From assembly GCA_902728285.1 (NCBI GenBank), contig CACVBU010000910.1, positions 2,273,316 through 2,337,315 of the forward strand: a DNA stretch of 64,000 nucleotides. Reading direction: 5' to 3'. This DNA is from Clytia hemisphaerica. Lineage: Eukaryota; Cnidaria; Hydrozoa; Leptothecata; Clytiidae. The notes beneath the pieces are model-generated. The model was given only the letters and a program-made list of their open reading frames with translations, was not told the DNA's origin and did not search any database. A program made the translations under genes and the position numbers. Below are positions 2,144 through 58,500 of the stretch, in pieces (position 1 is the first letter of the stretch; each line of letters starts with the position of its first letter).

Positions 2144-2145
2144 TA

Positions 2146-2960: not shown

Positions 2961-2966
2961 TAGATA

Positions 2967-27083: not shown

Positions 27084-28085
27084 CTAACTGACTTTAGATT
27101 GGCCAACATGTTTAAGATGGATAGCATTGCTGTCTGCTGGTTTGCTGTGTCTTCGAATCGCCCGCACTCTTTGACTTCGAGTTGGCAGCCTTTGAAAATA
27201 ACTTTGCAACAATGTTCTGCATTTCCTGTTTTTCACCAAGAAAGCAGTGGCATTGATAATACCATTGATATTCGGAATTAAATACAAAGGATACGTCAAT
27301 ACACTTAATTGCCACAATTCTAAGCTCTTAACCTCATATCGCATCAGGAAGCCATACAACAAAACAGGAAAGTTGCATACGAAATATGTGATAACATACA
27401 GAGACGCCATTTTAGTCAGCTTTCTAGTCTCATTAAAATTTTCATTACATCGCCTTAATTTCTTTAGCCTGGTAATGGAAACAATGTAGATTATGATGGT
27501 CAACAAGAATATGACGATGTTTCCCGGCGCTGTCAAATTCGACGCCATGCCGGGGCCACCAAGGGCGCCAATAGCCCATAAAACAGTCTGTATAATAGAC
27601 ACTAATGAATGGATAACAATTACCAAGTTATAATGCCAAGTCCTAAATTTTGCTTCGTAGTCTTGTAGAAAAGCGACTCTCATTAGGCGATCAAAGGCTA
27701 TAACGGTAATGAAATAGCCGAGTGAAAATACGAAAAACAAGACAGGTGTCATGATGGTCATTTTAGCGGCACAAGAGATCATCTCGCTATACGCTATATA
27801 AATAACCGACGAAGTGTTTGACACTATAGAACTTAATACATCGTAAATCGAAATAATTAGAATGAGCTTCGATGACCGATTTCGCCACTCCTTTGTCTTG
27901 ACTATAGCCCAAATAACAATACTATTGAGGATGAATCCGATTACCCCGAAAACGATAAATGGGATAACGAGGTTTTTTCGGATTTGATCAGGTGCGTCTT
28001 TTATGTCATCTAATACGGCTATACATACTTTTGTATAAGTTTCGTTGGTGTAAAAAGTCGAATTCAAAGTAGTAGTATTCTTCAT
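27084..28085 (-). CDS. Class A GPCR paralogue A, single exon
   Basis: A 333-residue receptor. I chose the ATG at 28085 because its product aligns residue-for-residue with paralogue C from the first Met (MKNTTTLNSTFYTNETYTKV); the frame is also open to an ATG at 28199, but that leader does not align. Seven membrane segments are at about residues 38-62, 73-97, 104-129, 152-174, 188-205, 228-250 and 260-284. Residue C105 begins TM3, and FDRL at 131-134 stands for DRY. CNFP at 237-240 replaces CWxP, and NATAF near 278 replaces NPxxY. Glycosylation sites are at the N-terminus. The C-tail is basic. Ligand unknown. It is about 94% identical to paralogue C over residues 1-189 but only about 76% over the next 111. 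Confidence 0.85.
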   Translation of the reverse strand: MKNTTTLNSTFYTNETYTKVCIAVLDDIKDAPDQIRKNLVIPFIVFGVIGFILNSIVIWAIVKTKEWRNRSSKLILIISIYDVLSSIVSNTSSVIYIAYSEMISCAAKMTIMTPVLFFVFSLGYFITVIAFDRLMRVAFLQDYEAKFRTWHYNLVIVIHSLVSIIQTVLWAIGALGGPGMASNLTAPGNIVIFLLTIIIYIVSITRLKKLRRCNENFNETRKLTKMASLYVITYFVCNFPVLLYGFLMRYEVKSLELWQLSVLTYPLYLIPNINGIINATAFLVKNRKCRTLLQSYFQRLPTRSQRVRAIRRHSKPADSNAIHLKHVGQSKVS

Positions 28086-28640
28086 GTTTTGATCGGAACT
28101 GCTTGGATTGCAAGGCCAACAATAATTTCTTGTCAATTTTCTCCTTATTCCTTGGCAAACAAAATATGAGTGAGGATCTATGTGAAGGCAAGGCTTCAAA
28201 TTTTATTTATTTACGAAAAAAATACTGGGCACTAATTCAGCGTTCGGAAAGTGACGTTTTCAACCAATCAAACTCTATTCAGAAAGAAATGATCTGAATC
28301 CTATCGGTTTTGGATAAAAATCAAAGGGAATTTTTTCTTCACCAGAATTTACACGTTTTTTTTACAAGAACAGTTTTATAAGAACTCATAAGAAGCTCAA
28401 TGTTGATGAAACAAAATATCAAAATTGAGAACAATTCCAAGATTCTAAGGTTTCAATAATGGTTGAGAAAATGAAGACAAATAGTGAATCAACTAGCCAT
28501 ATTAAGAACATTTTAAGAACATTCATTCTGAAGATCACGAAAAAAGAGGTTCAGTCAAAATATACTGGTTCTTATAAAAAAGGGCATGCATTTGTGTAAT
28601 AAATAATGTGTTTGATGCATATAACAATGAGAATGTTTAA
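28086..28640. other. GPCR A upstream region with a decayed CACGTTTTTT element
   Basis: TACACGTTTTTTTTACAAGA near 28354 and GGTTCTTATAAAAAAGG near 28570 mark a decayed TA-family copy with internal AAGAACATT motifs. Nothing else is recognised. Confidence 0.45.
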
Positions 28641-32840: not shown

Positions 32841-33595
32841 CCCTATTAGCCCCAAGCTATTTTGACTTTTGTATCCCCAGGGGGGGGGGGTAGAATCTAC
32901 CACCCTCGATTATTTTCGATCTAGAAGAGCTATGGCCATGAAATTTGGTACAGATGTTCTCCATCATGATACAATTTTCCAGGAAGAAAAAAAAAATTGA
33001 TGACGTCATTCAAAAACTGATGACGTCATCACAAAATTTCCACCTGTCGGAAAAAAGCCCAAATATATGGTTTACAAAAATGTCTATTACAGTCGAACCA
33101 ATAAAGATATTTCGATTCTGTTTGAAGATTCTGAAAGGTAAAAGACTGTTTTTTAACATAATTGCCGGTTTTGCAATTTCTATGAAGATTTTTTCTTAAA
33201 ATCTATGCTGAAGATGAGTAAAATTTTCAAAATTTGATGACGTCATAAATGATGACGTCATCATTTTCAAAAATTTTCTTTAGATTTTTTAAATTTGTAT
33301 TATCAATGCCTATCACGTGTCAAAATTTTAAAATGATTGAATAAATAGTTTAGAAGTTATCAGCACTTTAAAATTTTGAGTTTTAAGGATTTTAGCTGGG
33401 TTTTATGTCATGTTTCACAATAAAGTCATAAAACCTGATCTGAACAACCTATGACCCTTAAATTTTTCTACAAGTACTCTTAATAAGATTTTATTAAAAG
33501 TCAGAAAGTTTCAATTCGTTTGAATAATTTTTCTCCGAGATATAAACAAAAGAACTCCAGCGTGGTAGATTCTACCCCCCCTGGGGCTAATAGGG
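32841..33595. mobile_element. TTAA-flanked piggyBac-like MITE, 755 bp
   Basis: CCCTATTAGCCCC at the left and GGGGCTAATAGGG at the right are perfect inverses bordered by TTAA (32837-32840, 33596-33599). A second inverted block, GGGGGGTAGAATCTACCAC, follows inside. CCC termini with a TTAA duplication are the piggyBac signature. TGATGACGTCAT motifs recur inside. No coding capacity. Confidence 0.88.
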
Positions 33596-34018
33596 TTAAA
33601 GCTCTTGGATAGCTAAAATATGATCAATTCGAAGTCTTACAGATTTTTGAATTGCCTGCTGCTTAAAAATCGCTAGCGGAAATGCTTCATGCGAAAATGG
33701 AAGAGTTCCGATTTAAGCGTATTATAATAAAGAAGATGAATGAAAATGTCATAATACAAGATATCAAATTGTTATTATAAAAAACGTGTAAAAACCAAGG
33801 TGCACTGGCAATCTTCTTACAATGTTCTTATTTTTTTCCAAAGTCCAGCCTAAACATTCTTATAACCTAGGTCCTAATAAAAAAAAATGTGCAAAAAAAA
33901 AAAAAATAGCTGGTTGGACGAAATGTTACTTTTTGACTTTAGATTGATGTCACTGATTGACATAACTAAATCTTAGCAAGGCTTGAAGATATGTACGATG
34001 GGATGAATTAAATGTATT
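33596..34018. other. No gene; fragment of CACGTTTTTT family
   Basis: Near 33781-33895 an AACGTGTA end, ATGTTCTTATTTTT, CAGCCTAAACATTCTTATAA and a TAATAAAAAAAAATGTG end mark a short decayed TA-family copy. The rest is featureless. Confidence 0.45.
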
Positions 34019-35390
34019 TTTGGACCTACCGGTGGGGTGGAGGTCCTATAAATTAACCTTCGTTCGTTCGTTCGTTCGTTCGTTCGTTCGTCCGTTCGTT
34101 CGTTCGTTCGTTCGTTCGTTCGTTCGTTCGTTCGTTCGTTCGTTCGTTCGTTCGTTCGTTCGTTCGTTCGTTCGTTCGTTTCGTTCGTTCGTTCGTTCGT
34201 TCGTTCGTCGTTCGTTCGTCGTTCGTTCGTTCGTTCGTTCGTTCGTTCGTTCGTTCGTTCGTTCGTTCGTTCGTTCGTTCGTTCGTTCGTTCGTTCGTTC
34301 GTTCGTTCGTTCGTTCGTTCGTTCGTTCGTTAGCTTTCCTCATGATTGGCTGATAAGTTTTTTCTGATTTTTTGCACAAAGATGTGTAACTATAAACCCT
34401 CGAATTTGACGGAGCCCGATTTTCGAAGAAAAAAAATTTTTGGGCAAATTTGGGCCAAAAAAACGGGTTTTTTGGACTTTGTGAAAAATTGGATCATTAA
34501 CTTTTTCTGATTTTTTGCATGAAAGTAGGGTACCATCATAGGTAGAAGATGGCTCAAGCAAATTTTTTCAAAAAAATTTTGTTGGCACAAAAAACGCATG
34601 TTTATCTATAAGAATCACTATTAATAAGCATACATCGATGTTCTTAGTTAAATTACTCAATTTCTTAATGAGATAGATGTTTTTTTTGCTCATGCGGGCT
34701 TACTTTTGAAGAATATATGTGTTTAGACATGAAATTTTGGTTGCTTGGCGTTTTTTTATAGAAAAACTGGCCAAATTCGATATTTGTTTTTAAGCACATT
34801 ATCAATTACTTAGGTATTAGCTTTTCTCGAGATTGGCTCTTTGATTCTTTATGATTTTTTAGCACAAAGATGCATAACTATAAACCCTCGAATGTGACGG
34901 AGCCCGACTTTCAAAAAAAAAAAATTTAGGGGCAAATTTGGGCCAAAAAACGGCTAAAAAATGGGTTTTTTGGACTTTGTGAAAAATTGGATCATTAATT
35001 TTTTCTGATTTTTTGCATGAAAGTAGGGTACCATCATAGGTAAAACATGGCTCAAGTAAATTTTTTCAAAAAAATTTTGTTGGCTCAAAAAACGCATGTT
35101 TATCTACAAGAATTACTATTAATAAGCACACATCAATGTTCTTAGCCAAATTACTCAATTTTTTGATGAGATAGATGTTTTTTTGCTCACGAAGTCTTGA
35201 ATATGAAAAAATATTTCAAGAGCATGAAATTTTGGTTTCTAAACGTTTTTTTTATAAGAAAAAACGACTAATTTTATATATCGTCACTATATGTGTTCTG
35301 AATGATTGTTTAATGGTGACGCTCACGTAGATATCAATTATATATGTGTTAAATGCATAACCAGGTAGATCCATAAAAGTATCACTTGTT
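34019..35390. repeat. GGACCTACC-family copy with long (TTCG)n array
   Basis: It starts TTTTTGGACCTACC, contains GGAGGTCCTATAAATTAACC, the TTCG array, then two tandem modules of about 490 bp (34345 and 34840) sharing TTTTTTGCACAAAGATG, CCCTCGAAT and CATGAAAGTAGGGTACCATC, and ends CCAGGTAGATCCATAA. Paralogous to 15682-17325. Confidence 0.7.
34059..34330. repeat. (TTCG)n microsatellite, about 270 bp
   Basis: Nearly pure TTCG for about 68 units with a few slips (TCCG, an extra T near 34180, and GTCG steps near 34207 and 34218). Open frames in all phases encode RSFV or NERT repeats and are artefacts. Confidence 0.97.
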
Positions 35391-35396
35391 TTGTTT

Positions 35397-35792
35397 TCAT
35401 TTACCACTTGGTGGTGCTGCTGTTGTTATTCCAGCGCTGTCATCAACTTTGTAACATATGCATTTGTATCGTCCTGTTTGTGATCCGTAGCATTCATCTG
35501 TTCTAACACAATGACCCCCGCATGCATTAAGGGTGAATACACAGTAATTGAAACATGAGATATCGTTATTGCTACCTTGTTGGAGATGACACGCACCAAA
35601 CTCTCTACATTCCCCCTCGACAGATAAAATCTTGACTGGATTACCTTGTTGGAGCAATAGGCAATTCGGCAGGTTGGATGGATCATCGTCAATTAACCCT
35701 TGCGTCACCAATTGATTGTTACATGAACGAACATAATTGGTTTGAACGACCATCATGTAAAACACAAAAACAAAACTGTTCGTCGTCTTCAT
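35397..35792 (-). CDS. Small secreted cysteine-rich protein
   Basis: A 131-residue single-exon frame. The first 20 or so residues (MKTTNSFVFVFYMMVVQTNY) look like a signal peptide. The mature part has eleven Cys at residues 24, 44, 62, 68, 80, 84, 91, 95, 101, 111 and 113. The C-terminal spacing C-x3-C-x5-C-x9-C-x-C in CGGHCVRTDECYGSQTGRYK followed by CIC is like the first part of an EGF-like domain, but a full EGF module is not present. A Thr/Ala/Pro tail ends the protein. It probably acts outside the cell or on the cell surface. It starts just outside a GGACCTACC repeat copy, whose right end overlaps its 3' side. Function unknown; the odd Cys number suggests a dimer or a free thiol. Confidence 0.65.
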   Translation of the reverse strand: MKTTNSFVFVFYMMVVQTNYVRSCNNQLVTQGLIDDDPSNLPNCLLLQQGNPVKILSVEGECREFGACHLQQGSNNDISCFNYCVFTLNACGGHCVRTDECYGSQTGRYKCICYKVDDSAGITTAAPPSGK

Positions 35793-36340
35793 ATTTCACC
35801 CCTAAAAACATGAATATAAAGATGATTGATAGCTCAAGGATGCCCCTTTAAATAAAAAATATCGATAGAGCGATGAATAGAGAAGTCATTTCAGCTTGCG
35901 CTCAGTGAAATATGAATGCTTCTGCTAATCCTTCAATGAATAAGTTTCCTTCAAGAAGTATTCTATAGAATTTTGCGTATCAGACTAAAAACTTAGTGGC
36001 CACACGATTTTTGTATAAGAACAGACTATATAAGAACATAACTCTTTGATGGTAAAAATATTAAAAGAACAAGCAAGTTAAGAACATTTTAGAAGGCTTT
36101 GCGGATCGTAAAACACTTATTTTCTTTGACTTCGGCAAATGGAAAAAATACTGACAAAATGGTGAAAATAAGAACATGTTAAGAACATATTGAGGCTTTG
36201 AACCAATTTACAGTTAAAAATTTTCTATAAATGAAATTCTTAGGTTTTGTTGCCAAATTCCGATTCTGCCAAATTGTGTGGGTTGCGTGCGTGAAGATAT
36301 AACCCTATGCGTAATAGTGCGTAGTCTAAAAAAAATAATA
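35793..36340. other. Upstream of secreted-protein gene; TA-family fragment
   Basis: A TATA-like ATTTAAA lies near 35850 for the minus-strand gene. From about 36000 to 36230 AAGAACAT and AGGCTTTG blocks with a CACGATTTTTGTATAAGAAC end mark a decayed CACGTTTTTT-family copy. Confidence 0.4.
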
Positions 36341-36344
36341 TACG

Positions 36345-36580
36345 CGTATGGCCGATCGGATGATTCATCGAATGATTTATCGCATCGAATTTTTTATCGA
36401 ACGGTTTATCGCATCGAATTTTTTATTGAAAAATTTACCGCATCAAATTTTTTATCGGATGATATGTGTCGTATCGAAAGAGTTTATCGAATAAATCATC
36501 GCATAATCGATTATTTCATCGCACAATTCATCGAATCGAAAGAGTTTATCAAATTAATTATCGAATATTTTATCGCAGCT
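36345..36580. repeat. Degenerate TTTATCGCATCGAAT repeats
   Basis: TTATCG, CATCGAAT and GAGTTTATCGAAT recur in a loose tandem pattern of about 12-45 bp. The plus-strand open frame here is a by-product. Confidence 0.7.
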
Positions 36581-37384
36581 ACGGCGTTCCATACTTTCGT
36601 TTTCAAATGTGAAATATATTTGGCACGCGGGTTATGAGATTGAAAATGATATTTTCAAATGACAAATATATTTGACATTATGCTTATGATGAACAAAAAC
36701 GGCAAATTTTCAAAAAACATCTTTGATATTCTGCTTTACAATCATACTTTCAAAAACGATTTTATGTCCAGTATATTTGACATTGCCCCTGGCGGCTAAC
36801 AACTGGTGAAGACAAATATACATGCCATTGGACTGCTCAAAATATTTTTTATTTTCTCCCGCCGAAAACAACTGCATCGCCTCGAAAATCTTTTTTGCCA
36901 TTTTTTCCGCATAGGCATGGAAAGAGTTAAAGTCGAGTCTTACCTCAGATACTGTATGAAGCTGATAAAAAGAATTGGTCCTTTATACACCATTTTTGAC
37001 ACCCGAAGCTATTGCCCGGCAATTATTAACATCCCTTACGTAATTCCAGAATCTTTCCAACCTTTCAAATCATACCGACATAACATTTTTGGCAGCGTGC
37101 AAATGCATAGAAAAAACATACAGGCCTTTATAATCCGATCGCCTAAAAATTTTGAAGCTACTTTTTTACCTACCTAGTCTGTTCCCGTTGTTAAGTGGCA
37201 ACGAGAAAGCTATCGTATGGTATATATTTAAAAAACGAACCTGCTATATATTGAAGAATGTAAGAAATAAACCAAAGAGCTCACCTTTAGGCTGGAAGTT
37301 CAATCAGATTTAAAGTGTTCTCTAAGCAGTCTTCTTATTTTCTGTCTTTAAGCTAATCTTTCACCGACTTATATATAAGATAGA
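36581..37384. other. No gene supported
   Basis: An open frame at 36806-37177 on + has no recognisable family, no clear signal and no splice context. Nothing else is recognised. Confidence 0.3.
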
Positions 37385-37389
37385 TACCG

Positions 37390-37605
37390 GTTTTTTTTAT
37401 AAGGGTACAACTTAGTAAATGTAAGACAAATTAAGGGAATGTTTGACCTCAGATCTCAAAAAATTACTAAGGAAAGTATTGATTTAAGCCTCTAAGTAAA
37501 GAAATTAAGCTGTTGAATATATTTCAAGAATATTTTAGCTTGAAAATTTCGAAAAATAAGACCAGTCGGTTGATTTCGTGTTCCTATAAAAACAGGTTTA
37601 TCGAA
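37390..37605. mobile_element. Diverged TA-type TIR element
   Basis: ACCGGTTTTTTTTATAAGGG at the left and TTCCTATAAAAACAGGT at the right are loosely inverted and flanked by TA. It is probably a distant relative of the CACGTTTTTT family. Confidence 0.4.
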
Positions 37606-37860
37606 TTAAACTGATTATTCTTGATTTTTGCTTGAAAAGGCGATCATTAAATCTGCATTAAATCTACGACAGCTGGTGAAAGATAGTATCTTCGATTGGT
37701 ATCGGTCGAAAGATTTCCTCTCACAAGTTTGTTTCTTCTTGATTCGTCCGTAAGGTGAAGCATTGATAAAGTTTTCCTTCCACCTTTTTTACGATATGAC
37801 ATGGCTGTCAACAAATTTTCACTGGCAAGACCAGTTTCCCTCTTCAATGATCGACTTGAG

Positions 37861-38300
37861 CCCTTATCGGTCCTTACGCCGGCCCTAATTTAACGACGAC
37901 CCTTATTTAACGCCGGCCTTTATTACGCCACAGCCTGATTTTGGGCTTACACTAATTAGGGCCGGAAATAACGCCAAAATTTGTTAGAATGGCTATTTAT
38001 GCTTCAATTTACATTAAAACATCATTTTTCAGTAGTAAACTGTTGAAAATTCCTGAGTTTGATTGAATTGAAATTGAAAATCAAAAGTTTTAGATATGGA
38101 GTAACACAATGGATAATTTTTTATCTTCGAATCATACCTAAAATCTTTTAAATAGAGAAAAATGGTCAAAAATTAACACCACTTTTAAGTAAAATTTGCA
38201 AAATTTTGGCCCTTTTTACACCGGCCCTTATTACGCCAAGAGCCTAAAAATAACGCCAATAAGGGCCGGCGTAAAAAGGGCCGATAATGTAACACAAGGG
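37861..38300. mobile_element. TIR element rich in GCCGGCCCTTATT
   Basis: CCCTTATCGG and TTACGCCGGCCCTAATT near the left are mirrored by AATAAGGGCCGGCGTAA and CCGATAATG...CAAGGG at the right. Further GGCCCTTATTACGCC units occur in the subterminal regions. About 440 bp, no coding capacity. Confidence 0.65.
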
Positions 38301-40100
38301 TGACTAACACGTCTTTGGGCATCCAGACGCCAGGTTATCAATTTTCCGACTGTTCCTCTCGGGTTAAGAAGAGTATTTCATCTTTTTAACTTATTTGAAT
38401 TCAAAATTGGTCCATGATTTGAAAGTCATTCGAAATGAAGTTCCATTGAAAATTTGGAAAGGCCCTTCATGGAAATATGTGGCTGGGAATAGATACCTTT
38501 TCATAACACCAAAATTTTTGAAGCCTTGGGATGTTCTTTTCGAGCTTTAAGCCTAAAAATGTTCTTAAGATTTTGGCCATCGAAGCCTGTTTTGTATAGT
38601 TTGCTCTTATAAAGAAAACGTGTATAAGCATACAAGAATGCCAATTTGCAGATTTTCTAAGTATAACAGCATATACGCCAACGTGAAATATTTTTTAAGT
38701 CGTCAATTTTTTGCTGAAGTAAAAAAGACCCTCCCTGATGATGACTAGCCACATTCCCCTGTTTCCGAAATCTGAAGCTTTTTATTCGAATTTCTGAGAT
38801 TTTTCAAAAAAAATTGGTTCGGGTTGAACCCGAATTATAAGAATTATAATTCATAAGCATACAATAAGCATATGCTGTGCCTGGATGCTTTGAAAGCTTA
38901 ATCGCATACATGAGCCTGACCAAGGGGCAGACACTTGCTTATAAAAACATGTACTGGAATCAGCAAAATACTTGGCTCAAGAAAATACACAAAACATACG
39001 CCTCGAAGATCAAAGGTTTTGGCACAAGGTCTAAATATTTCTCAATTAAGGAAGGTCATTGCAAAATAATAAGTGATCATTAGTATTTTGCGAAGATTAA
39101 ATCAACTGCACTCAAATTTCGATCCAAGATAACATTCTTTTTTGGGTATCCCTCTTGATTGGCAAGTTAGATCAATAGATTAAAACAGATAGCATTATGT
39201 GAAAACAGGAAAATAGGCGAAGTCAATTATAGAGGTTATAGAACTATAACAACTGCGGTCTTTAATTGTTATCGAAATTTTAAAGTGGCACTATGTTGAA
39301 GTGAAAATTTAATGAGTTCAGAGATAAAAACAGTGCTCCAGACTTGTGCGATATAATCTTTCTGTATTGAGCAAGGAGGTCTTAGATATTCAAGATCAGA
39401 TTTAATGTCGCCTTGAAAGTTAGAGCAATAGATTAAAACAGATGGGAGATAAAGAAAACAGGAAAATACGGTAAAGTCAAATTTCATTTAAAATGATGGA
39501 GGTCAAAGCTCTGTCATCTAATTCTTTGTATGCGGTTTTGAAGTGAACATTTGATGAAAATTAGTCTGCCCGTTTCCCCTATTTCAATGTTGAATTCAGA
39601 GAGAAAAACAGTGCTCCAGATTTGTGCGTTATATTCTTCCTAGAATGAGCAAGGACGAAGGTTCCCTTTTCTTTAGCGATCTACTCTAAGGTCCCCAATT
39701 GTAGGGGGGGGGGTCCGAAAAAAAGGAGGTCCAAAATTTTACCTCCGAAAACCCTAAAATAAGGCAATTTAAATTAAAACCAGGCTATTCAGAGAAATTC
39801 AGCTTATGATAGCTGAAAATATTTTCAAAAATGAATAAACGGGGGGGGTCCTAATAAGAACATTTAAAAGTTTACAGCCTATAACATTTGAACGCTCGTA
39901 CAATAAGTAGAGCATTAAGCTACGGTGCGCAATCTTGCGGATTTTTTACCAAAGACTACCATGAAATGGTATTGATGCCACGTTGCTTGATGTTCAGGAA
40001 CCAAGAGACAGATCTAGTGTGTAATTGGAGAAATCCAGGGCGATGAGTGTTAACCCTTTAGGTACTCTAAGATCCCGAATAAATATCTTCCCCCGTGTAT
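38301..40100. other. No gene; TA-family fragment and an imperfect 240-bp direct repeat
   Basis: A right-half fragment of the CACGTTTTTT family ends AACGTGTA near 38625. TTAGATCAATAGATTAAAACAGA near 39167 and 39420, and CAGTGCTCCAGA near 39330 and 39608, mark two imperfect tandem copies of about 240-280 bp. The poly-G tract near 39704 and 39841 may be remnants of a poly-G element. No ORF is convincing. Confidence 0.4.
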
Positions 40101-40504
40101 TAAAACCCCCATTGTTTTGCACAATGATGCAAAATGGCAATACCCAAAATGTGACGGAGCCCGATTTTCAAAAATATTTTTTCCGGCCAAAAATACCAGA
40201 AATATGCCGGAAAACCAGCTTTTTTGGCATTCTCTCGAGATTTCACCATTAGTTTTTTTCTGATTTTTTGCACAGAGATACACGTTTTTTTTTATTAGAA
40301 CACCTAAAGTTTGGCTGAGCCTGGATGTGCTTATTTTTTTAGCAATTTTCAGCCTAAAATGTTCTTAAATGCGTTCTTAATTTTTCAGACTACTCTAAAT
40401 CGACAATATGATACAAAATAAAGAGCACTTAAATTTGGCAAAATTTGGACAATATTTGACTCTTGACTTTTGAAGATCCACCCCTAAATTCGGTTAAAAC
40501 TGCT

Positions 40505-42103
40505 CAGGGGGGGTACCAAGTCAGTGTACTGGACCATAGGGTACTAACTTGATTTTTGGATTTTTTTCCAAAAAATTAGACCACCACCCTTTTAGTACAC
40601 TGTACTAACTTTTTTTCACGGTCGGGGCTTTGACACCACCCTTTTAGTACACTGTACTAACTTTCTTCCACAGCCGGAGCTTTGATACCACCCTTTTAGT
40701 ACACTGTACTAACTTTCTTCCACAGCCGGAGCTTTGATACCACCCTTTCAGTACACTGTACTGACTTCTCCATGACCGGATTTTTGATACTACCCTTTTA
40801 GTACACTGTACTAGCTGTTTTTTCGATCAGATAAGTTTAGAAACCACCCCTTATAGTGCACTGTTCTAATTTCTTCTTAGCCAGATAAGTTTAATTGCCA
40901 CCATATACAAAGGTTTTGAAGCATTTTGCTAGGAAAAGCACCAAATTATATAAAAGGAAAGATTTGAATATTAAAATACTTGAATCCTTATATAGTACAA
41001 ACACTGAAACAATGAAACAGACAAAGCAAAGTCAATCAAATAGCTGAAATTAGCACGTCAAAACACTCAAAACCAACTTTGAGTTATTTCCCTTCTTGTG
41101 ACTTGATTTCTGGTTGTCTGGCAATCTGTAGCAGTTTTTCTTTTTTGAAAAATAAAAATGAAAGACTTAATAACATTGTACACAAACTGAAATGGAAAAT
41201 CTTTTATCAAATGTAATATTATACAAAATATATAAAAAGGTGCTTTCCGCGGGGGGGGGGCACTCCAGGTAAGTGACCTACCGGACGTGCGGCCCTTAAG
41301 GGTAGGTTTTTTGGACTTTGGAAAGTGCACTGTAAGGGTTGATTTGTGAGCAAGTGGGAAAAAATGCACTGTAAGGGTGTAAAATTTGAGAAATTTCAAA
41401 AAATTTTGCCCTGAAAAGATTTTCGATTTTCAGCCAAATTTTTCCTGCACTGTAAGGGACCGATTTTAGAGACCTGATTTTTGGCCGAACGTATGGTCGT
41501 TTTCACCCCCTCCCCCCGGTGATTTCACTTATATACAGATTTTTTTTCAATTAACATCAATCCAACAAGGTTGCTAAAAAACATAAAACAATAGAGCGGA
41601 TTTGTTTTTATAAAACTTGAAAGCTTCGATTCGAACGTTTACACATTCAAATTCTTGTTGTTGCCATAATGTAGATAGGGCCTTAAAGAAAACGTAAACA
41701 AGATTGGAATTAAGACCGGTCTCCACTTGCGCATACTGCGACTCTGAAACAAATCCAATCAAGTAAACAGGAAACATTGGGAGAAAATCAGTGTACCAAT
41801 TTGTATAGCTTAACCAGCCTCGACTTGAAGGTCTCGGACCAGCTTGGACCTGGCAAATTAGGCCAAATATACATGGGAATTCACTGGGTTTGTGTGTTTT
41901 TACCACTGAAATTAGTACAATGTACTAACTTCTCAGTGTGTATCAATTCAGAACACCACCCTTTTTAGTACAGTGTACTAACTTTTTCATTGTATTTTTC
42001 TCAGAGGACCACCCTTTTAGTACACTGTACTAACTCAATTTAATCTAAAAAATACACCACCCCACCAGCTATGGGCCAGTACACTGACTCGATACCCCCC
42101 CTG
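40505..42103. mobile_element. Poly-G TIR element, 7-bp target duplication
   Basis: The ends CAGGGGGGGTACCAAGTCAG and the inverse of CTGACTCGATACCCCCCCTG match over nearly 29 bp, then continue as TGTACTGG. The 7-bp AACTGCT flanks both sides (40498-40504, 42104-42110). Inside both ends are tandem ACCCTTTTAGTACACTGTAC units (about 57 bp apart). A further element sits inside at 41248-41518. Confidence 0.9.
41248..41518. mobile_element. hAT-like poly-G MITE, innermost of three
   Basis: The ends are CGCGGGGGGGGGGCACT at the left and CCCCTCCCCCCG at the right, with GTGCTTTC and GTGATTTC flanking (7 of 8 bases equal). GCACTGTAAGGG occurs repeatedly inside. Same family as 45348-45688. Confidence 0.7.
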
Positions 42104-42249
42104 AACTGCTTAAAAAGAGGAAAAAATTGTAGTTTCTTGTCATTTTTTTCCAAACTGAGGCTGGGCATGTTCTTAAGATGTTCTTAATTTTTCGACGAAT
42201 TTCAGCCTATATGTTCTTATAAACTAGATTCTAATAAAAAAAAAACGTG

Positions 42250-42650
42250 TACGTATTAGCAATGCCCCAAATGTGGCCGATTCTGATTTTTAAGAAAAAA
42301 AATTTTTCCGGTCGAAAATGCCGGAAATATGCCAGAAATCGCCGTTTTTGCAGATTTTCATTGGATTTTTTTCCTTTGTTTCTTCACTCAAAAAAGATGA
42401 CAATGCCCACTATCAATCACGGTTCATGATTTAATTGTCAATAAAACTGATTTTTGCAACCGGAACTTTCTATTTCTTTTTTTCCCTACTCCTCTTCCTT
42501 CTCCCCCCATCAACAATCAATGATGAAATTTAATGTGTTATGCATTTTCGCTAAACGCTATATTTTCTGACTTTTTTTTTTCAATTTTCTCCTCATTGGT
42601 GCTATCTCACTTTCATCATCTGGTAGGTCCAATCAGCATCCAGCTTGTTT
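42250..42650. repeat. Right part of a split GGACCTACC-family copy
   Basis: It resumes with CGTATTAGCAATGCCCCAAA and ends GGTAGGTCCAATCAGCAT. The left part is at about 40100-40280. The copy was split by the TA element. Confidence 0.65.
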
Positions 42651-42782
42651 AGGTTTTTGAATGAGTAGTAAATGGGTCAGTAAAAATTCACCTCGTAATC
42701 AACATAAAGAAATGTTTCATTTACTAGTTTAGTAGCTTATCACAAAAATGCCAGGTGAACCTATTCGTCTCCAATCTATTTA

Positions 42783-44023
42783 CACGCTTTTTTCAATAAG
42801 AATGGTCCATTTTTCCAAATTTCCAAAAAGTCCATTTCATCATGGATATTCTTAACTTTTTTGGAAAAATTATTCTAAAATATTCTTACAGCATTCTTAG
42901 GTTAGGATCCTAATTCTAATTCTAGATTTAACATTTACTACATACGTCTCAAGCATAAAATTGGCATTTTTGTGAAAGGAGTGAGCCTTACTTGGGGGTA
43001 CGAATTGGCAATTTATAATTGAAAATGCTCTAAAATGGCGTTCTTAGCTTGACAGAGCTTGAGTAGCCAAATTTCATGATGGCAGGGGGGGGTCAGTGTA
43101 CCAGAGGGTGGCATGTATCCTGGGGTGGGTGGGTGTTTGAGAAAAAAATTTGTCATGTACTACCTGTGTACTATAATTGGGGTGTTGGGTCCAAACTCGA
43201 TTTTGATTTTTACTACCTGTGTACCAAAATAGGGGTGTTGGGTCCAAAATCGATGTTAACAGTGTGGAAACAAAAAGGTTAAGAAATTATCTGCTAAAAT
43301 AGAAATGTAAAGTTGTTCTATTATAAATTGATCAAGCCAAGTTTGTCCAAGATCATTCTTTGGAAGAATGAAATTTCTTGGAATGAATTGAAATCCTACC
43401 AGATCCCACTGAAATGAAGGTTTATCGAGTCAATGTAAACATTTGAACATTTGAATTCAAACATTCAACATTCGTACATTAGAGGTGCCAACTCTCACGC
43501 ATTGGGTGTGAGACTCATGCATTTCTACATGGTCTCACGTAATTTTTGAAAAGTTTGATTTCTCACCCATTTTGGATTTTTGAGAAAAATTTTCCTGTTT
43601 TTCCGATTTTTGGAAAAAAGTTTTCCCAATTTCTCGATTTCCCGATTTCCCGATTTCACGATTTTTGGAAAAATGTTTACCCGATTTTCCGATTTTCGGA
43701 AAAAAGTTTCTCTATTTTCCGGATTTTTCAAGGTAGTACCCGGTAGTAAATGGGGGTATGGGGTGGTTTTGGTTTTTTACCAGGTACTACCTGGGTAGTA
43801 AATAGGGGGTATGGGGTGGTTTTGGGATTTTTCCATGTAGTATGGTGTACTTCAGGGGTGGGTGGGTGTCAAGTTTTGAAAAATACCTTGTAGTACACAT
43901 ACATGCCGCCTTCTAGTACACTGACCCCCCCCTGATGATGGTGATATTCTTAGCATTATTCTTAATTTTGGCCATTTTCATCATGGACATTCTTATAAAG
44001 TATATTCTTATATAAAAAAAGTG
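42783..44023. mobile_element. CACGCTTTTTT-subfamily TA element with a nested insertion
   Basis: CACGCTTTTTTCAATAAGAA at the left and TTCTTATATAAAAAAAGTG at the right, with TA on each side. The interior matches the copies starting at 55732 and 58796 (for example AAAGGAGTGAGCCTTA and GATGGTGATATTCTTAG). It is interrupted by the element at 43083-43934. Confidence 0.8.
43083..43934. mobile_element. Poly-G TIR element, 7-bp target duplication, with empty site elsewhere
   Basis: The ends CAGGGGGGGGTCAGTGTACC and the inverse of AGTACACTGACCCCCCCCTG match. ATGATGG flanks both sides (43076-43082, 43935-43941). The uninterrupted paralogues near 55957 and 59043 read CCACGATGGTGATATTC, the expected empty site. 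Internal runs of TTTTTGGAAAAA and TTCCGATTT spacing give short false ORFs. Confidence 0.9.
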
Positions 44024-45339
44024 TATACAGTACTTACAAATCACATGATCTTACACAAGAAATACAGAGGTAGAACATACAGGAAACTAGTTAATCAAGA
44101 GATAAGAAAACTATTTCGAAAATCAAAGATTTTTTTGATACTTATCTTTTTTTTTACCTATTGCAAACATCAAAAATTACAAGAATTACAAAAGTTTTTT
44201 GCAATTAAAAATTCATTAACTTTTTCACAGTAACTGTAGCGAAAAAGAAGGGATGAATAACTTACATTACTTAGGCCCACGCAGTATTATACTTATTACT
44301 AAAAAATATTGTCCAAAACAGTGTGACTCAGATATAAAGATTATTCAACCCTATAAATATTTGACTTTTTTTGGATACACTAGTGTTGGTCTATGTTTTA
44401 TTTTAGAAGGCGGCTTTACTTTGACCTGAAATCAGATCATGATTGTTTTCTGCACACCACGCTGAAAATGGTACGAGTGAAAACAAACGACCTTACAAAT
44501 AAGCGTTCTCGATTTCATTAAGACTGCCCAGCGCTTGGAATGGATCGGGGACAGCGATAAAGTTGTGACATTGTGTTTAAATACAGCGGATCGTATCAAA
44601 GACATTCTGTTTTGACCTCCCGGTCGTGTTATAGAATTAAATATTCTCATCATATGGTTGATGTTTAAGCTCGTTTAAACAGGTTTACCGTGCGCGTCTA
44701 AAAATATGACCATCTGCTTTCAGGTTATTTTAATTAAGCTCAAAATGCGACTTCAAAAGTCAATCCAATCAGTAGCGTGATTGGGGCAAACTACTAAGGT
44801 AAAATTTATAATTTGGTAATTTTCCCCCCTTTAACTACCGTTCGTATATTTTAAGGGTTCGACCTATTTGCCACGGAAAAAATGAAGGTTCGACCTATTT
44901 GCCAAATGCCGGCATATGCCGACATGAGCAACCACAGAATTTACCATCACATTTAGCTTTATTTTTTGAAAAATATCAGAAATTTAAAGTGACATGTGTA
45001 TACTTTGAGTTGAAAAATGTATGATTATGAAATCTATTTTGATAAAATCTAGTTCAAAATTGAACTTTCAATAAACTTTAAAAAAAAAACTCTTGGAAAT
45101 AGGTCGAATCTCTCTTGTCGGTAAATGCCGACACCGACAGAGAAATCGAAAATGCTCTTGTGGACATATGCCGACAGCGATACGGGAAGGGTTAAAGTGT
45201 GAACAGGTGAAAGAGGGCTAAAATTAGCGATCGGAAACGCCTTTTTTCACCCCTTAAAAATCCACTACTAAGGGGGTGAGGGGGTGGGGTTATCGCATCT
45301 AAATTGGATCTTCGTTAAACAAACTTTTCATAAATATGT
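44024..45339. other. No gene; AATGCCGACA repeat segment
   Basis: Between about 44860 and 45195, TTCGACCTATTTGCCA and ATGCCGRCATATGCCGACA motifs recur near both ends, suggesting a decayed element. The rest, including small open frames, shows no recognisable protein. Confidence 0.4.
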
Positions 45340-45347
45340 AATAGAAG

Positions 45348-45688
45348 CCCGGGGGGGCAGTTGGGCAAAAGGACCGACGGGTATGTGCGGGTCCTAAGGG
45401 TACCTTTTCCAATATGTTTAAAATGCACTGTAAGGGTCGGAAAAACTAGAGATGCACTGTAAGGGTAGAAATTTCGGAAAATTCTTGAAAAATCTAGATA
45501 TTTTGACCAAAAATGCTAGAATTTTGACCATTTTTTGCACGAAAGGGATCGAAAATTTGGGGGAAAATGCACTCTAAGGGTATGATTTTCACTGATTTTT
45601 GCTGCACTGTAAGGGTGCAATTTTAAAAGCCAATTTTTGGCCCGCACATACCGTCAGTCCGCAAACCCAGTGCCCCCCCCCCCCCGGG
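45348..45688. mobile_element. hAT-like poly-G MITE with perfect 8-bp target duplication
   Basis: CCCGGGGGGGCA at the left, TGCCCCCCCCCCCCCGGG at the right, and AATAGAAG directly on both sides (45340-45347, 45689-45696). GCACTGTAAGGGT occurs four times inside. An 8-bp duplication fits hAT; the transposase source is not in the window. Confidence 0.85.
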
Positions 45689-46440: not shown

Positions 46441-47517
46441 ATTACTAGTACTTATGACACAGCAACGAGCCAAGTTAAAACCTTTTAGGTAGGAACCATC
46501 CTTGTTGATAAAAGAAAAGTGAAAAATCTTTTGGCAGAATCGGGGAAACATTTGAAAAAAATAAAATTCGCGTATTCACACACAAGATATCGCAGATTTA
46601 CGCATTCACTCAAGTTTTTTCAATTCAAGCATTCTCGTATTTTTTTCTATTTTCATGCATTCTCGCAACTGAAAAGGCCGATTCACGCAAACCACTGTGG
46701 GGCCCCTTTTAGAAAGTAGTTCGTTGGAGTCGACAAAAACCATTCTGTTGCCCTTTTTTTTCAATCGCAACTTCTTGAGGCTGTTACTTTCGTTAAAACG
46801 AGAACTATTTTCCTAACTATTAAAACTATCATGCTCTAATTATTATCCAACGATGTGACGTGCACTTTGAAAAAGACAATAAATCTAAACCTCCGAAAGG
46901 TTTTTTGCAGAGTTTTTTTAGGCGGCTAGCTGGTTCGTCTCTCGAATTATTCAGAAACTTTTATTTTTAGTGGAAATGTTTTCATTTGAATTTTGAACTT
47001 TGGGAAAGATGTCTGAAAGTCTTTAAAGTCTTTAACAAAAAGTACAATTTTAACATTAATAACATTTTTTTTCTTGTTTTGTGAAATTTTCTGCAGCTTG
47101 TCTGTCGTCGACTTGATTGAATTTGGATAATCTGAACTTTATTTAGCAATAAAAACGTTAATCCAGAAGAAAAAACGCAAGTAAAAGAACATCCAATAAC
47201 GAGAATAGAGTAAGTCTTGGTGAGAGTAAATACATCAGCGTCGTATTAAAAATAGTAATATCATACATCGACAAGGAGTCGAACCAATCAAAAAACCTGT
47301 ACTCTTACAAATAGAAAATGTTACTAAATATATACAAATAGATAGAGTGAGATTTGTTTAGCTTGGTCAAAGCAAGTATCGAACGGCGTGAGGAAGATAG
47401 CCAACCAATGAAAAGCTCCAGGATTGTCAACTTAAGAATATAGAACACTTTAAGGACGTTGAACTTTGTTTTGAAGATTGGGAAGGAGTGATTACCTAGG
47501 AGATCCCCATAACAACA
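46441..47517. other. Upstream of GPCR B, no other gene
   Basis: AT-rich sequence with no convincing coding stretch. It may hold the promoter of paralogue B, but no element stands out. Confidence 0.35.
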
Positions 47518-48600
47518 ATGGCAGGAATACTCTCCTTAGTTCAGAATGTGACAATAGTCAATAATTGGACGCATATGGATAATTGGACGTCAATCAACAA
47601 TCAGACAATACCTGTTTGCATTTCCATTCTTGACGATATTAAGGATGCTCCGCCAAAAGTCCGTAGAGAACTAACGATTCCTTATATCATCATTGGGACA
47701 CTCAATTTTGTTCTTAATTCGATCGTTGTATGGGCTATTTTAAAGACCAAGCAATCGGCCAATCAGTCAACACGGCTAATCCTTATTGTGTCAGTTTACG
47801 ATGTTTTAACGGCCGTTATAGGGAACATCTCCTACTGCTTGTATATCAGAGAGAGTGAAAATCTAAGCTGTCCTTTCAAAGCAGGGCTAATGATAATTTC
47901 AGCATTCTTGGTCTGGAATATTGGATACTTGGTCGCTATTATAGCTTTTGATCGACTAATGCGTGTTTTGCTGAAACAGAATTATTCAACTAAATTCAAT
48001 TCACGAAGATATAATCTGGTGCTTGCGATCCCGACTATATTTTCAGTGTTACAGACTATTTTATGGGCCATTGGAGCACTTGGAGGTCCGGGCCAGGCAG
48101 CCGTCCTAACAGCACCTTTGAATTACGTCATTTATTCGTTGACATTGGTGTTTTATTTTGTTTCCATCTATAAGCTAAGAATCATCCAAAACAACAGCCT
48201 AATAGTGACCGAGACTAGAAAGCTAACTAAGATGGCTTCAATATATGTCGGACTTTATTTCTTGTGTAATTTTCCCGTTCTACTCTATCATAGTCTGGTC
48301 AAACGCCTTTTAAAAGATGTGGAATATTGGCAGATCAGTACAATGTCGTTCTACATTTTCTTTATTCCAAACTTGAACGGAATGTTTAATGCAATTGCTT
48401 TCTTAGCGAAGGACAGGAGGACCAGGACTTTAATGAACGATATTTACCAGAAATGTACCCGGAATGCGAATGTTCGGCAGATTCAGGTGGCACCGTTGGC
48501 AATTATCGGGGATGTACCGACAAAACAATCAACCATGGCTGATCGTTCGTCATCCATTGATGAAACTAAATCCCCCGAGAAACAAACAAGTCCCGTGTAA
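47518..48600 (+). CDS. Class A GPCR paralogue B, single exon
   Basis: A 360-residue receptor starting MAGILSLVQNVTIVNNWTHM with several NxS/T sites before the shared CISILDDIKDAP block. It then shows the same layout as A and C: NSIVVWAILKTK after TM1, FDRLMRV at the end of TM3, LWAIGALGGPG after TM4, TETRKLTKMAS before TM6, CNFPVLLY in TM6 and PNLNGMFNAIAF in TM7. The tail is longer than in A or C and rich in Ser, Thr and Lys. It is clearly a paralogue but more distant than A is from C. It lies about 1.1 kb upstream of C on the same strand, suggesting tandem duplication. Confidence 0.85.
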   Translation: MAGILSLVQNVTIVNNWTHMDNWTSINNQTIPVCISILDDIKDAPPKVRRELTIPYIIIGTLNFVLNSIVVWAILKTKQSANQSTRLILIVSVYDVLTAVIGNISYCLYIRESENLSCPFKAGLMIISAFLVWNIGYLVAIIAFDRLMRVLLKQNYSTKFNSRRYNLVLAIPTIFSVLQTILWAIGALGGPGQAAVLTAPLNYVIYSLTLVFYFVSIYKLRIIQNNSLIVTETRKLTKMASIYVGLYFLCNFPVLLYHSLVKRLLKDVEYWQISTMSFYIFFIPNLNGMFNAIAFLAKDRRTRTLMNDIYQKCTRNANVRQIQVAPLAIIGDVPTKQSTMADRSSSIDETKSPEKQTSPV

Positions 48601-49670
48601 GAATGGCGACTTTCATCGGCAAAACAATTGACATAATCAGTTGAAACTTTGCGAGACTAGTTCGTTGCCTGCTGAATCGGATTTTCAGTCATTACCCAGG
48701 CCTTCAACATATCTCGAGCGCACTTTCCGTGCTTAAAAGACTGATGACGAGATATGTCGCAATGGCGTGGTGCTCAAAAATATCGAAGGATTCGAAAAAG
48801 TGTCATTTGATAAACTGAAAAAAAAATAAAAAATCGTCAAGCTTTGAAAATTTGAGCTTTCTGACTGTATTTTTTTTCAATCAGTCTCGAACCCTCAAAC
48901 GAGATAACAATATATTTCGTTTTCAGTTTTTTTTGGGACGGCTCGTGGAAAAGCCGCGGTATTTTAAAAACAGTAAGTTAAAAAAGCCGCAGCTTTTTAG
49001 ATACGAACAAATAAAAGACGCAGTCGCCAAATGGTGAATGTATTTTAACTTGAATTAATTGTTTTAAAATTGTAAATGAAAAATGATTTAATTAACCAAG
49101 ACTTTAAAGTTAAATAAGTAAAATTCGAATTCTTTTATCTTCACTTCTGGTCCTATTATATCTTTTAATTCGTTTGCCTTATATTTGATATTTGATATAA
49201 GAAGTCAAATGCTTAGGTGGGGGACTTAGGTAGATCGCCCAGAACTGCCCAGTCACAAAGTGGATAAGAGATCTTCATTTAGCGACCGTTTCAGTCGGGT
49301 TATAAAATCTTGGAAATGTTATCTTCTCTTATCAATGGGTTGGGTAAACATTGCCTGTAGAACCTAAGAAAATATTTATTTGTATCTTGATAAGGTTTAA
49401 AAGCAATTTTAAACGGTGTTTTTGTAAAAATCAAGTCAAAAATTTTGACCATAAAAATCGGATAAGAAGGCTTATCAGATATTCTGTTACCCACGTACAA
49501 AGATAGTTAGAAAACAACGCCTATGTTGATAACACTTTTTGAGGTTTTTTTCTTTTTGGAACAAAAATCAAGTATCAACTGAAAAAAACTATTTCATTAG
49601 ATTTTGGCATTCAACGAATTATTTTGTTACGAGATCAGTATTTAGGGTTTTGACTGTTACAGCACAGAGC
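48601..49670. other. Between GPCR B and C, no other gene
   Basis: No repeat or coding stretch recognised. A TGTTACAG acceptor-like site at 49654-49661 just before paralogue C's start codon may mark the end of a 5' UTR intron. Confidence 0.35.
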
Positions 49671-50630
49671 ATGAAGAAAACTACTACTTTGAATTCGACT
49701 TTTTACACCAACGAAACATATACAAAAGTATGTATAGCCGTATTAGATGACATAAAAGACGCACCTGATCAAGTCCGAAAAAACCTGGTTATCCCATTTA
49801 TCGTTTTCGGGGTAATCGGATTCATCCTCAATAGTATTGTTATTTGGGCAATAGTCAAGACAAAAGAGTGGCGAAATCGGTCATCAAAGCTAATTCTAAT
49901 TATTTCAATTTACGATGGATTAAGTTCTATAGTGACAAACACTTCGTCGGTTATTTATATCGCGTATAGCGAGACGATCTCTTGTGTCGTTAAAATGGCC
50001 ATCATGACACCTGTCCTGTTTTTCGTATTTTCACTCGCCTATTTCATTACCGTTATAGCCTTTGATCGCCTAATGAGAGTCGCTTTTCTACAGGACTACG
50101 AAGCAAAATTTAGGAGGTGGCACTATAACTTGGTAATTGTTATCCATTCATTAGTGTCTATTATGCAGACTGTTTTGTGGGCTATTGGCGCCCTTGGTGG
50201 CCCCGGCATGGCGTCAAATTTGACTGCGCCGGGAAACGTCGGCATATACTCGTTGACCATCATAATCTACATTGTTTCCATTACCAGGCTAAAGAAATTA
50301 AGGCGATGCAATGAAAGTTTTAATGAGACTAGAAAGCTAACTAAAATGGCGTCCCTGTATGTCATAATATACTTCGTATGCAACTTACCTGTTATGTTGT
50401 ATAGTTTCCTGATGCGATTTAAAATTGAAAGCTTTGAGCTCTGGCAATTGAGCGTGTTGACCTATCCGATCTATATCGTACCAAATATCAATGGTATTTT
50501 CAATGCTATTACTTTCTTGGTAAAAAACAGGAATTGTAGAAACTTATTGTTAACATTTTATCAAAGATTTCGACCTCAAACGCAACAAGTACGCCCCATT
50601 GAAAACCAAAGCATTGAGTCGGCGGAATGA
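49671..50630 (+). CDS. Class A GPCR paralogue C, single exon
   Basis: A 319-residue receptor starting MKKTTTLNSTFYTNETYTKV. The frame is open upstream to an ATG at 49539, but I prefer 49671 because homology with paralogue A starts there, and a TGTTACAG acceptor-like site lies 10 bp before it, so a 5' UTR intron is possible. Motifs match A: FDRLMRV, GALGGPGMASNLTAPGN, NETRKLTKMAS, VCNLPVMLY and PNINGIFNAITF. The tail is short and ends IENQSIESAE. The shared DDIKDAP segment just before TM1 is a family signature here. A pogo-like MITE begins 24 bp after the stop codon. Confidence 0.85.
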   Translation: MKKTTTLNSTFYTNETYTKVCIAVLDDIKDAPDQVRKNLVIPFIVFGVIGFILNSIVIWAIVKTKEWRNRSSKLILIISIYDGLSSIVTNTSSVIYIAYSETISCVVKMAIMTPVLFFVFSLAYFITVIAFDRLMRVAFLQDYEAKFRRWHYNLVIVIHSLVSIMQTVLWAIGALGGPGMASNLTAPGNVGIYSLTIIIYIVSITRLKKLRRCNESFNETRKLTKMASLYVIIYFVCNLPVMLYSFLMRFKIESFELWQLSVLTYPIYIVPNINGIFNAITFLVKNRNCRNLLLTFYQRFRPQTQQVRPIENQSIESAE

Positions 50631-53824: not shown

Positions 53825-54134
53825 TCCCGGGGGGTGGGGGTTTACCAATTGACAGTATGTGCGGCAAAAAAATTGGCATTTAGAATAGCACCCTTATAGT
53901 GCAGAAAAAAATTCATACCCTTACAATGCATTTTTTCAAATTTTAAACTCTTTTAGAGCAAAAAAAATCAAGATTTTCGAGCAATCAAGATTTTTTGAGC
54001 AATAATTTTTCCCATAGATTTGCTGAAATTTCCACCCTTACAGTGCATTTCTGATAAATCGGAAAACATACCCTTAACCGTCGCAGATACCCGTCGCGGC
54101 GTCGGTCAATTTGCCTGACTGCCCCCTCCCCCCA
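53825..54134. mobile_element. Poly-G MITE of the GCACTGTAAGGG family, diverged
   Basis: CCCGGGGGGTGGGGG at the left, CCCCCTCCCCCC at the right, and internal ACCCTTATAGTGCA / ACCCTTACAGTGCA inverses. No clear target duplication remains. Confidence 0.55.
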
Positions 54135-55506: not shown

Positions 55507-58500
55507 CAAGTTGGCGATAAACCAGTTATCACACTTTTACTTGTACAATTTAGTATATATTTTTCTCGTTCAGAGTTTTCTATATTTTAGGCTCGGAAAA
55601 TGACGAAGAATCTGAACACGAAAAATTTATCCCATATTGTACTCGATACCGTGCGATAACTACAGTATTACATATTGTTGATTTTTTGGCCAATTTCATC
55701 ATGAATACACGCTTTTTTCATAAGATGCTGCAAATCCATCCATATCATGGATATTCTTAACTATTTTGGGAAAATAATCCTAAAATATTCTTACAGCATT
55801 CTTATAAGTTAGGATCCTAATTTGAACTAGATTTAACATTTAGTACAAACGTCTCAAGCATAAAATGGAATTTTTGTGAAAGGAGTGAGCCTTAATTTAA
55901 CAATTTATAATCGAAAGTGGCTCTAAAATGGCATTCTTACCTTGAGTAGCAAAATTCCACGATGGTGATATTCTTAGATATTTATAATGCAGTTGACCTA
56001 AAACACCAAAATAGAAAAATCAGTCCCTCGTAGGGTGCCTTTTTTTGGAAAATTTGGGGAAAAAGTAGAAAATTCGAGAAAAAAGTAGAAAATTTGAGAA
56101 AATTTTGGAATTTCAGTCCCATTCAGGGTCACTTTTTTCGCAAATTTCGATTCCCACGTAGGGTCCATTTTTCGAACCTCAGCGGAGCACCCCCGTCGGT
56201 AGTACCCCCCCCCCGGGTGTATTGTTGTAGCTTTTTGGTCAAATTTCTTTTGTTACAAACAAAAGGCAAGTTGCGATTTGCATACTTTTTGATCACGTCA
56301 CCAAATTCTCCTCTTGAGATTAGTCTATTTTCCAATCACATGATCAAAAAGTTTGCAAAATAAATCGATTTTGGTACGTAAGCTCCATCTTTTAACCAAT
56401 AAAACGAGACAAAAGCCTTCCAGACCAGTGTTTTTATAATGACTATGGTTCAAGTTAAGTTGAAATTTAGGTCAAGAAATAAGTAATACCGTAGTTATCA
56501 CACGATACAGAGTACAATATGGGATATATTTTTCGAGTTCGGATTTTTCGTCATATTTCCCGAGCTTTTTGTGATTTGATACCAGACCTTTGAACGCTGT
56601 CTTGTATTTGTATGGTACAATATGAAATTTTTTAGCCAATCAGATTGCTTATATTTTTCATGTTGATGATAAAGATGCTGAAAGCTTTTCTGTCCTCTAT
56701 TTATTGGATGGCAATAAAAAAGCAATCTTTAGGGCTGTGGTAACTTTTAGACTTCACTTAACCGAAATGCAATTATGTTTTTTCTCAAAGGGTTAAAAAT
56801 AATTCCTATTTAATAAGAGGCCTGGTTCTAAGCAAAGAAAGTTGAGTTAAGGGGCAAAAGAATAATTATCGGGTTAAAGGGATCGAAATTGTAAATCCCC
56901 TGTCTAGCCAAAACCTTTTTCCCCGATAAGGTATACACGTTTTTTTATTAGAACCCAGTTTATAAGAACATGCAGGCTGAAATTCATCGAAAAATTAAGA
57001 ACATCGTAAGAACATGCCCAGCCTCAGTTTGGAAAAAAATGACAAGAAACTACAATTTTTCCTCTTTTCGGGACAAGCTGGAGTTTTTACAAGATAGAGA
57101 AATGCTGAATTTTGCAGAACAGGATCAATTCATCCTTTCTTTCTACAATGTTTAAAATTACAAAGTTACAGTCATTGAAATACTGAATATATCGAAATTC
57201 TATCAAAAACAATTACAACACCATACTCAAGTCCCAAAGTCCCGAATTGAAATACATCAACTTTCTGAAAATTTTTTACACCAACCCATTGTCCCGAGGT
57301 CCCGAAGTCCCGAATTGAAATACATCAACTTTCTGAAAAAATATTACACCAACCCAAAATCCCGAGGTCCCGAAGTCCCGAATAGCAAAATATCGAAAGT
57401 CTTTTTAAAAGAATATCACACCATACCTAAGTCCCGAAGTCCCGAATTGAAATACATCAACTTTCTGAAAAAATTTTACACCAACCAAAGTCCCGAAATC
57501 CCGAATAGCAAAATATCGAAAATCTGTTTAAAAGAATCACATCTTACCTAAGTCCCGAAGTCCCGAAGTCCCGAATTGAAATACATCAACTTTCTGAAAA
57601 AAATATTACACCAACCCAAAGTCCCGAGGTCCCGAAGTCCCGAATAGCAAACTATCGAAAATCTATTAAAAAAATCACAGCATATAACTTTGTCCCGAAG
57701 TCCCGAATTGAAATATATCAACTTTCTGAAAAAAATTTTACACCAACCGAAGTCCCGAAATCCCGAATAGCAAAATATCGAAAATCTGTTTAAAAGAATC
57801 ACATCTTACCTAAGTCCCCTAAAGTCCCCCTCCCAACAACCTTTCTGAAAAAAATTTACACCAACCCAAAGTCCTCGGTCCCGAAGTCCCGAAGTCCCGA
57901 ATAGCAAACTATCGAAAATCTATTAAAAAAAATCACAGCATATAACTTTGTCCCGAAGTCCCGAAGTCCCGAATTGAATATATCAACTTTCTGAAAAAAA
58001 TATTACACCAACCCAAAGTCCCGAAGTCCCGAATTGAAATATATCAACTTTCTGAAAAAAATATTACACCAACCCAAAGTCCCGAGGTCCCGAAGTCCTG
58101 AATAGCAAATTATCGAAAATCTGGTTAAAAAAATCACACCATACCTATGTCCCGAGGTCCCGAAGTCCCGAATTGAAATAAATCAAATTCTATCAAAAAA
58201 AATTACATCAACCTAAAGTCCCGAGGTCCCGAAGTCCCGAATTTCATTAAATCAAATTCTATCAAAAAAATTACACAAACTTAATGTCCCGAGGTCCCGA
58301 AGTCCCGAAGTCCCGAATTGAAGTATATCAAATTTCTGAGAGAGAAAGTTTCCACCCATGCCTCTTCTTAATTGATTTTTACCCCTACTCTTTTCATACT
58401 TTACATCCATCTCCTCACCCCCTTTCTCACCCTCGCTTTGCATCTATCTCACCCCTGTCTTCATGTATATCTCTGTCCCCTCTTTACGCGTCATCTCACC

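Follow-up and report, generated by a model that had tools for sequence, protein, structure and literature searches.

The innermost of three DNA transposons that lie one within another in the window (the whole stretch of 64,000 nucleotides of Clytia hemisphaerica DNA that was analysed) appears to be an inherited passenger of its carrier, and not the latest arrival. The history that we regard as very probable has four steps: the inner element entered an ancestor of the middle, poly-G family; that family amplified; a TA-targeting element entered the outer repeat; and a middle element, with its passenger, entered the TA element. With high confidence, then, the events at this locus ran from the inner element through the TA element to the middle one, and not from the TA element through the middle one to the inner.

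A sequence-only reading had proposed the nest, and its anatomy is borne out. Direct reading of the borders confirms the spans it gave for the TA element with its TA flanks, for the poly-G element with its 7-bp AACTGCT duplication, and for the inner element between near-perfect 8-bp copies (GTGCTTTC and GTGATTTC); the lengths of all three target duplications were right (Table 1). When empty host versions were looked for, each of the three insertions proved to have uninterrupted relatives: the TA site in window paralogues, the poly-G site in 20 of 20 TA copies fetched, and the inner site in five poly-G-family copies. That reading also held that the order of activity can be taken from the layers, and here the claim divides: the TA element does precede the middle element, and the inner element is not last.

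Table 1. Features of the nest, with positions in the window
Feature	Position	Strand	Remarks
Outer GGACCTACC...GGTAGGTCC repeat	34017..42638	+	Window evidence; interrupted by TA element and other DNA
TA target, left copy	40279..40280	.	Border reading and paralogue alignment
TA element	40281..42249	+	363 bp once middle element and one target copy are removed; terminal sequences CACGTTTTTTTTTATTAGAA / TTCTAATAAAAAAAAAACGTG
AACTGCT, left copy of 7-bp duplication	40498..40504	.	Border reading; empty sites in TA copies
Middle poly-G element	40505..42103	+	1599 bp; terminal inverted repeats; no coding capacity seen
Left terminal inverted repeat of middle element (CAGGGGGGGTACCAAGTCAGTGTAC...)	40505..40539	+	
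Tandem repeats of about 52 bp with palindrome TTAGTACACTGTACTAA, left side of middle element	40583..40876	+	
GTGCTTTC, left copy of 8-bp duplication	41240..41247	.	Form found in empty sites
Inner element, very probably an inherited passenger	41248..41518	+	Right end without AAATCGAGTG-like piece
GTGATTTC, right copy of 8-bp duplication	41519..41526	.	One change, common to family; 34/36 right junctions
Tandem repeats of about 52 bp, TTAGTACACTGTACTAA kind, right side of middle element	41912..42036	+	
Right terminal inverted repeat of middle element	42069..42103	-	
AACTGCT, right copy of 7-bp duplication	42104..42110	.	Border reading; empty sites in TA copies
TA target, right copy	42250..42251	.	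Border reading and paralogue alignment

The outermost layer reaches beyond 40265-42270: its conserved ends (left TTTTTGGACCTACC, right GGTAGGTCCA-TCAGCA) lie at 34017 and about 42638, with other interruptions besides the nest. Relatives of the outer repeat occur within the window at 6637-6931 and 15680-17307, with similar units at 15848-17030. With the TA element removed, the outer repeat gives a continuous alignment with 15848-16242 (82%) and with 16326-16715 (80%). In these paralogous units TG takes the place of the window's TA, and the TA duplication at this site is therefore seen only in the window. TA flanks are also seen in other genome copies of the TA element: as printed, TA borders the element at either end in the window and in nearly all 20 copies fetched.

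Genome searches covered 417 Mb, the window included, and in each the best 40 candidates were scored. The left half of the TA element, used as query, gave matches that are 98-99% identical among the best 40 of 1346 candidates, the window copy itself aside; 20 of these were fetched. In all 20 the site of the middle element is uninterrupted and carries a single 7-bp target, AACTGCT in 17 and a form with one change in three (L079, L082 and L086). Measured against the majority sequence of those 20, the window TA copy has 3 differences in 363 sites, and the 20 themselves have 0 to 7; the insertion of the TA element into the outer repeat is thus young, and that of the middle element into the TA element is younger still. 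In its TA target, short terminal inverted repeats and non-coding 363 bp, the element resembles those of the Tc1/mariner type. Tc1/mariner-type elements use TA targets; such targets occur outside that group too.

The middle element has inverted-repeat arms of 36 bases (92%), and many of its genome copies terminate at, or a few bases from, the borders read in the window. Target duplications were surveyed at 38 loci (L009-L046) and the window, 39 in all, and both ends were readable in 29: an exact 7-bp duplication flanks 23 of these and an 8-bp duplication none. With 8-bp flanks taken instead, no copy among the 29 matched at more than 4 of 8 positions. The copies without an exact 7-bp duplication are L011, L016, L027, L032 (cut by a contig end), L036 (matching at 6 of 7) and L043. 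The end pattern CAGGGGGG-(0 to 10)-TCAGTGTAC has 299 exact genome matches (144 forward, 155 reverse) and 0 in the reversed control. Four further elements with CAGGGGGG-type ends have 7-bp duplications (L095, L097, L098 and L099); none is visible at L096. Two individual copies have histories of their own. At L016, judged by eye, a middle copy has apparently landed in the palindromic repeat of a member of its own family, with TACACTG flanking it on both sides. At L020 (about 1217-5261) an interruption of about 4 kb splits a middle copy; query bases 663-666 occur at each edge of it, which would fit a 4-bp duplication.

The inner element also exists outside its carrier. Used alone as query it gave 43 genome matches, the best 40 of 1531 candidates being scored, and of 20 such loci fetched 19 are free-standing; the other (L057) is a middle-family copy. 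The 19, together with a relative in the window at 45348-45688, were tested for an 8-bp duplication, and ends were found in 16 of the 20. Thirteen of the 16 match at 7 or 8 of 8 flank bases, eight of them perfectly, against 2 of 240 cross pairs, and on this evidence the inner family is a real element making 8-bp duplications. Its ends read CCCGGGGGGG...GCACTC, the first bases being somewhat variable. A AAATCGAGTG-like piece at the right end is present in 16 of the 19 fetched free-standing relatives, and absent in the window copy and 19 other aligned middle copies. As to the relatives in the window, the one at 45348-45688 is free-standing and has a perfect 8-bp duplication, AATAGAAG; another, at 53838-54130 on the minus strand, has CACTGTAAGGG-type repeats and poly-G/poly-C ends.

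The question of order turns on the site of the inner element across the middle family. Forty middle copies found by similarity were compared: the window, L009-L046 and L057. The first middle-element query contained the inner element; inner-bearing copies were therefore favoured, and empty copies are at least as many as counted. All 40 have inner sequence at one and the same position: a probe shows it in 39, and L041 is assigned from its left junction only, where it matches the half-deleted form. Sixteen copies keep both junctions and both halves of the inner element; 11 keep both junctions and have lost the left half, the left border not being visible in those 11; 12 keep one junction with inner sequence. 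Of 28 left junctions read, 25 have GTGCTTTC and 3 have GTGCTTTT; the right junction is kept in 36 copies, and all but L028 and L035 have GTGATTTC there (34 of 36). A mutated duplication common across the family implies one insertion, then copying.

Copies that lack the inner element were sought with an empty-site pattern allowing up to 3 mismatches, which matched the genome at 8 places and the reversed control at 2. Of the 8, L087-L091 belong to the middle family: their left and right junctions overlap by exactly 8 target bases, and the single target reads GTGCTTTC in four of these five copies and GTGTTTTC in the fifth. L092 and L093 match in part, and L094 is unrelated. A tree of the middle family, built from the 32 of 47 sequences with at least 250 bases in both unique blocks (15 dropped), has 28 inner-bearing copies on one side and 4 inner-empty copies on the other side of a branch 0.025 long (support 100). 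The tree itself has no outgroup; it is the single target in the empty copies that marks presence of the inner element as the derived state. Median K2P distance is 0.035 within the inner-bearing group (maximum 0.059, 378 pairs), 0.100 between groups (112 pairs) and 0.105 within the empty group.

A straightforward reading takes the layers as the order of events: the inner element arrived last, here, in a resident middle element. The physical nest, taken alone, fits this, as does an 8-bp duplication with one mismatch. We nevertheless reject it, and give it very little credence, on the family-wide recurrence of the identical site with the identical mismatched duplication. One further point had seemed to favour it: in a tree of inner sequence only (22 passengers, 19 free-standing), the window copy branches apart from a clade that unites the other 21 passengers (support 96). 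The window inner copy has lost two stretches within repeats, and the letters that remain there resemble free-standing copies in the alignment; its misplacement is ascribed to misalignment probably caused by this repeat deletion. When the deleted stretch was dropped (35 of 41 sequences kept), all 19 passengers grouped, together with the free-standing L061, at support 23; this tree holds no conflict and little resolution. The window copy has, moreover, the base peculiar to passengers beside the CTGCACTGTAAGG motif, which is A (GAC) in 17 of 17 passengers scored, the window included, and T (TCC) in 15 of 15 free-standing copies scored; it has the same shortened right end as well. We conclude that the window copy, like the rest, is a passenger; in the deleted repeat stretch a free-standing copy may have converted it locally.

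Recurrence of the site could also arise if the inner element had struck one hot spot of the middle family repeatedly and independently, and the many members of the inner family elsewhere in the genome speak for this. Independent insertions would each give a matching duplication and an intact end, whereas the copies have in common a right duplication with the same mutation and the same shortened right end, and those that bear the inner element form one side of a fully supported split. On tree and junctions together this account is rejected as barely credible. Or the segment might be native to the middle family, the ‘empty’ copies being deletions. In the sample 40 copies bear it and 5 are empty, a ratio that would suit a native segment, though the sampling favours inner-bearing copies. 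Yet the five empty copies keep exactly one target, so that deletion would need base precision; they are more diverse than the inner-bearing ones; and the segment exists free-standing with 8-bp duplications of its own. A native origin is therefore rejected too, as extremely improbable, on the empty copies and the free-standing duplications.

The preferred history, a single early insertion followed by carriage, can be set out in steps. A CCCGGGG...-ended, 8-bp-duplicating element inserted once into a middle-family ancestor at GTGCTTTC, as the empty sites show; its right end was then shortened, as its free-standing relatives make clear, and the shortened element was probably unable to leave by its own means. 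The middle element, making 7-bp duplications, was then copied genome-wide with its passenger, as the shared position, the junctions and the tree show; its transposase was presumably supplied in trans, since no coding capacity is seen in it. A 363-bp member of a young TA-targeting family inserted into the outer repeat, and one middle copy, passenger aboard, inserted into the TA element with a 7-bp duplication; borders and empty relatives show both. Comparison among copies demonstrates that the inner event preceded the landing of the middle element here. That it also preceded the TA insertion is suggested by divergence, roughly equal rates being assumed: the inner-bearing crown reaches 0.059 in pairwise distance, against 3 of 363 sites for the window TA copy. 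Nearest identities of 94% for the middle family and 99% for the TA family had suggested a far greater age for the former, an idea that was dropped: the window middle copy lies 0.0109 from its nearest relative, L010, over the unique blocks, with a terminal branch of 0.0068, and the two percentages are thus not in conflict. One might suppose further that the passenger helped its carrier: that is, the inner element brought extra motif copies like the host's end repeats (GCACTGTAAGGG beside GTACACTGTAC), these improved recognition by the transposase, the inner-bearing lineage expanded, and inner-empty lineages stayed rare. We think this improbable.

The superfamilies of the inner and middle families are candidate assignments. 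Elements of the hAT superfamily make 8-bp duplications, often end in CAG or TAG, and are moved by a transposase that has an RNase H-like domain and a hAT dimerisation region. The inner family is like them in its 8-bp duplications and unlike them in its CCCGGGG ends, CAG- or TAG-type termini having been looked for on the inner element without being found. The middle family has CAG-type termini (its CAGGGGGG ends) and departs from hAT in its 7-bp duplication; 7-bp hAT families are mentioned for Repbase. The P superfamily has 7- to 8-bp duplications and a P-type transposase, and the duplication of the middle element falls within that length. The genome contains 99 matches to PF05699, the hAT dimerisation region, and in 12 stretches of 1101 bases downstream of hAT transposase matches with long open reading frames neither an inner- nor a middle-family end was found; among the PF05699 matches and these 12 flanks no transposase was linked to either family. 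The ‘hAT-like’ label given to the inner element has one basis, the 8-bp duplication. Two long pairs of middle-family ends (L095 and L096), considered as an autonomous partner of that family, hold retrotransposon-like reading frames instead (named by eye). Both, with their CAGGGGGG...TCAGTGTAC ends and long frames of this kind, look by eye like nests too.

MER6, a mariner MITE carrying a V-SINE body (PMC6887750), is an earlier example of a non-autonomous transposon that amplified with a passenger inside it. The likeness is that a non-autonomous DNA transposon holds a piece of another mobile element, spread by its own amplification. They differ in the passenger: a SINE body in MER6, here the relative of a DNA transposon with its own target duplication, and with inner-empty copies surviving in the same genome. 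The second comparison is with TinT, an interruption analysis that orders periods of activity by insertions of element in element (PMC3014933). Its logic of nesting is the same as that of the sequence-only reading; it takes nested pairs as separate events, whereas here a single event is seen in at least 39 middle copies, the inner insertion having been copied along with its carrier. When nesting is used as a clock and the inside is taken as younger, an inherited passenger of this kind would be counted many times over and, at this locus, would give the wrong order. What makes the case clean is that one genome has all three states, empty, occupied and free-standing. A simple check follows for nesting analyses: one looks for the inner border and its duplication in further copies of the carrier. 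For transposon biology the locus is nothing out of the ordinary; it is a useful caution to anyone who dates events by nesting.

Other parts of the window deserve mention. A second nest lies at 42779-44025, where a poly-G element (43083-43934, with a 7-bp ATGATGG duplication) sits inside a TA-ended, ATTCTTA-rich element. Two long near-identical repeated segments (55744-56945 and 58831-60032) each contain half a TA-family element. At 32879-33585 lies an element whose inverted ends read CCCCAGGGGGG...TAGAATCTACCAC; it carries TGATGACGTCAT motifs, and no target duplication was seen at it. Long uninterrupted reading frames at 27084-28202, 47500-48600 and 49533-50630 match 7-transmembrane receptor (GPCR) families, two of them above a Pfam cut-off.
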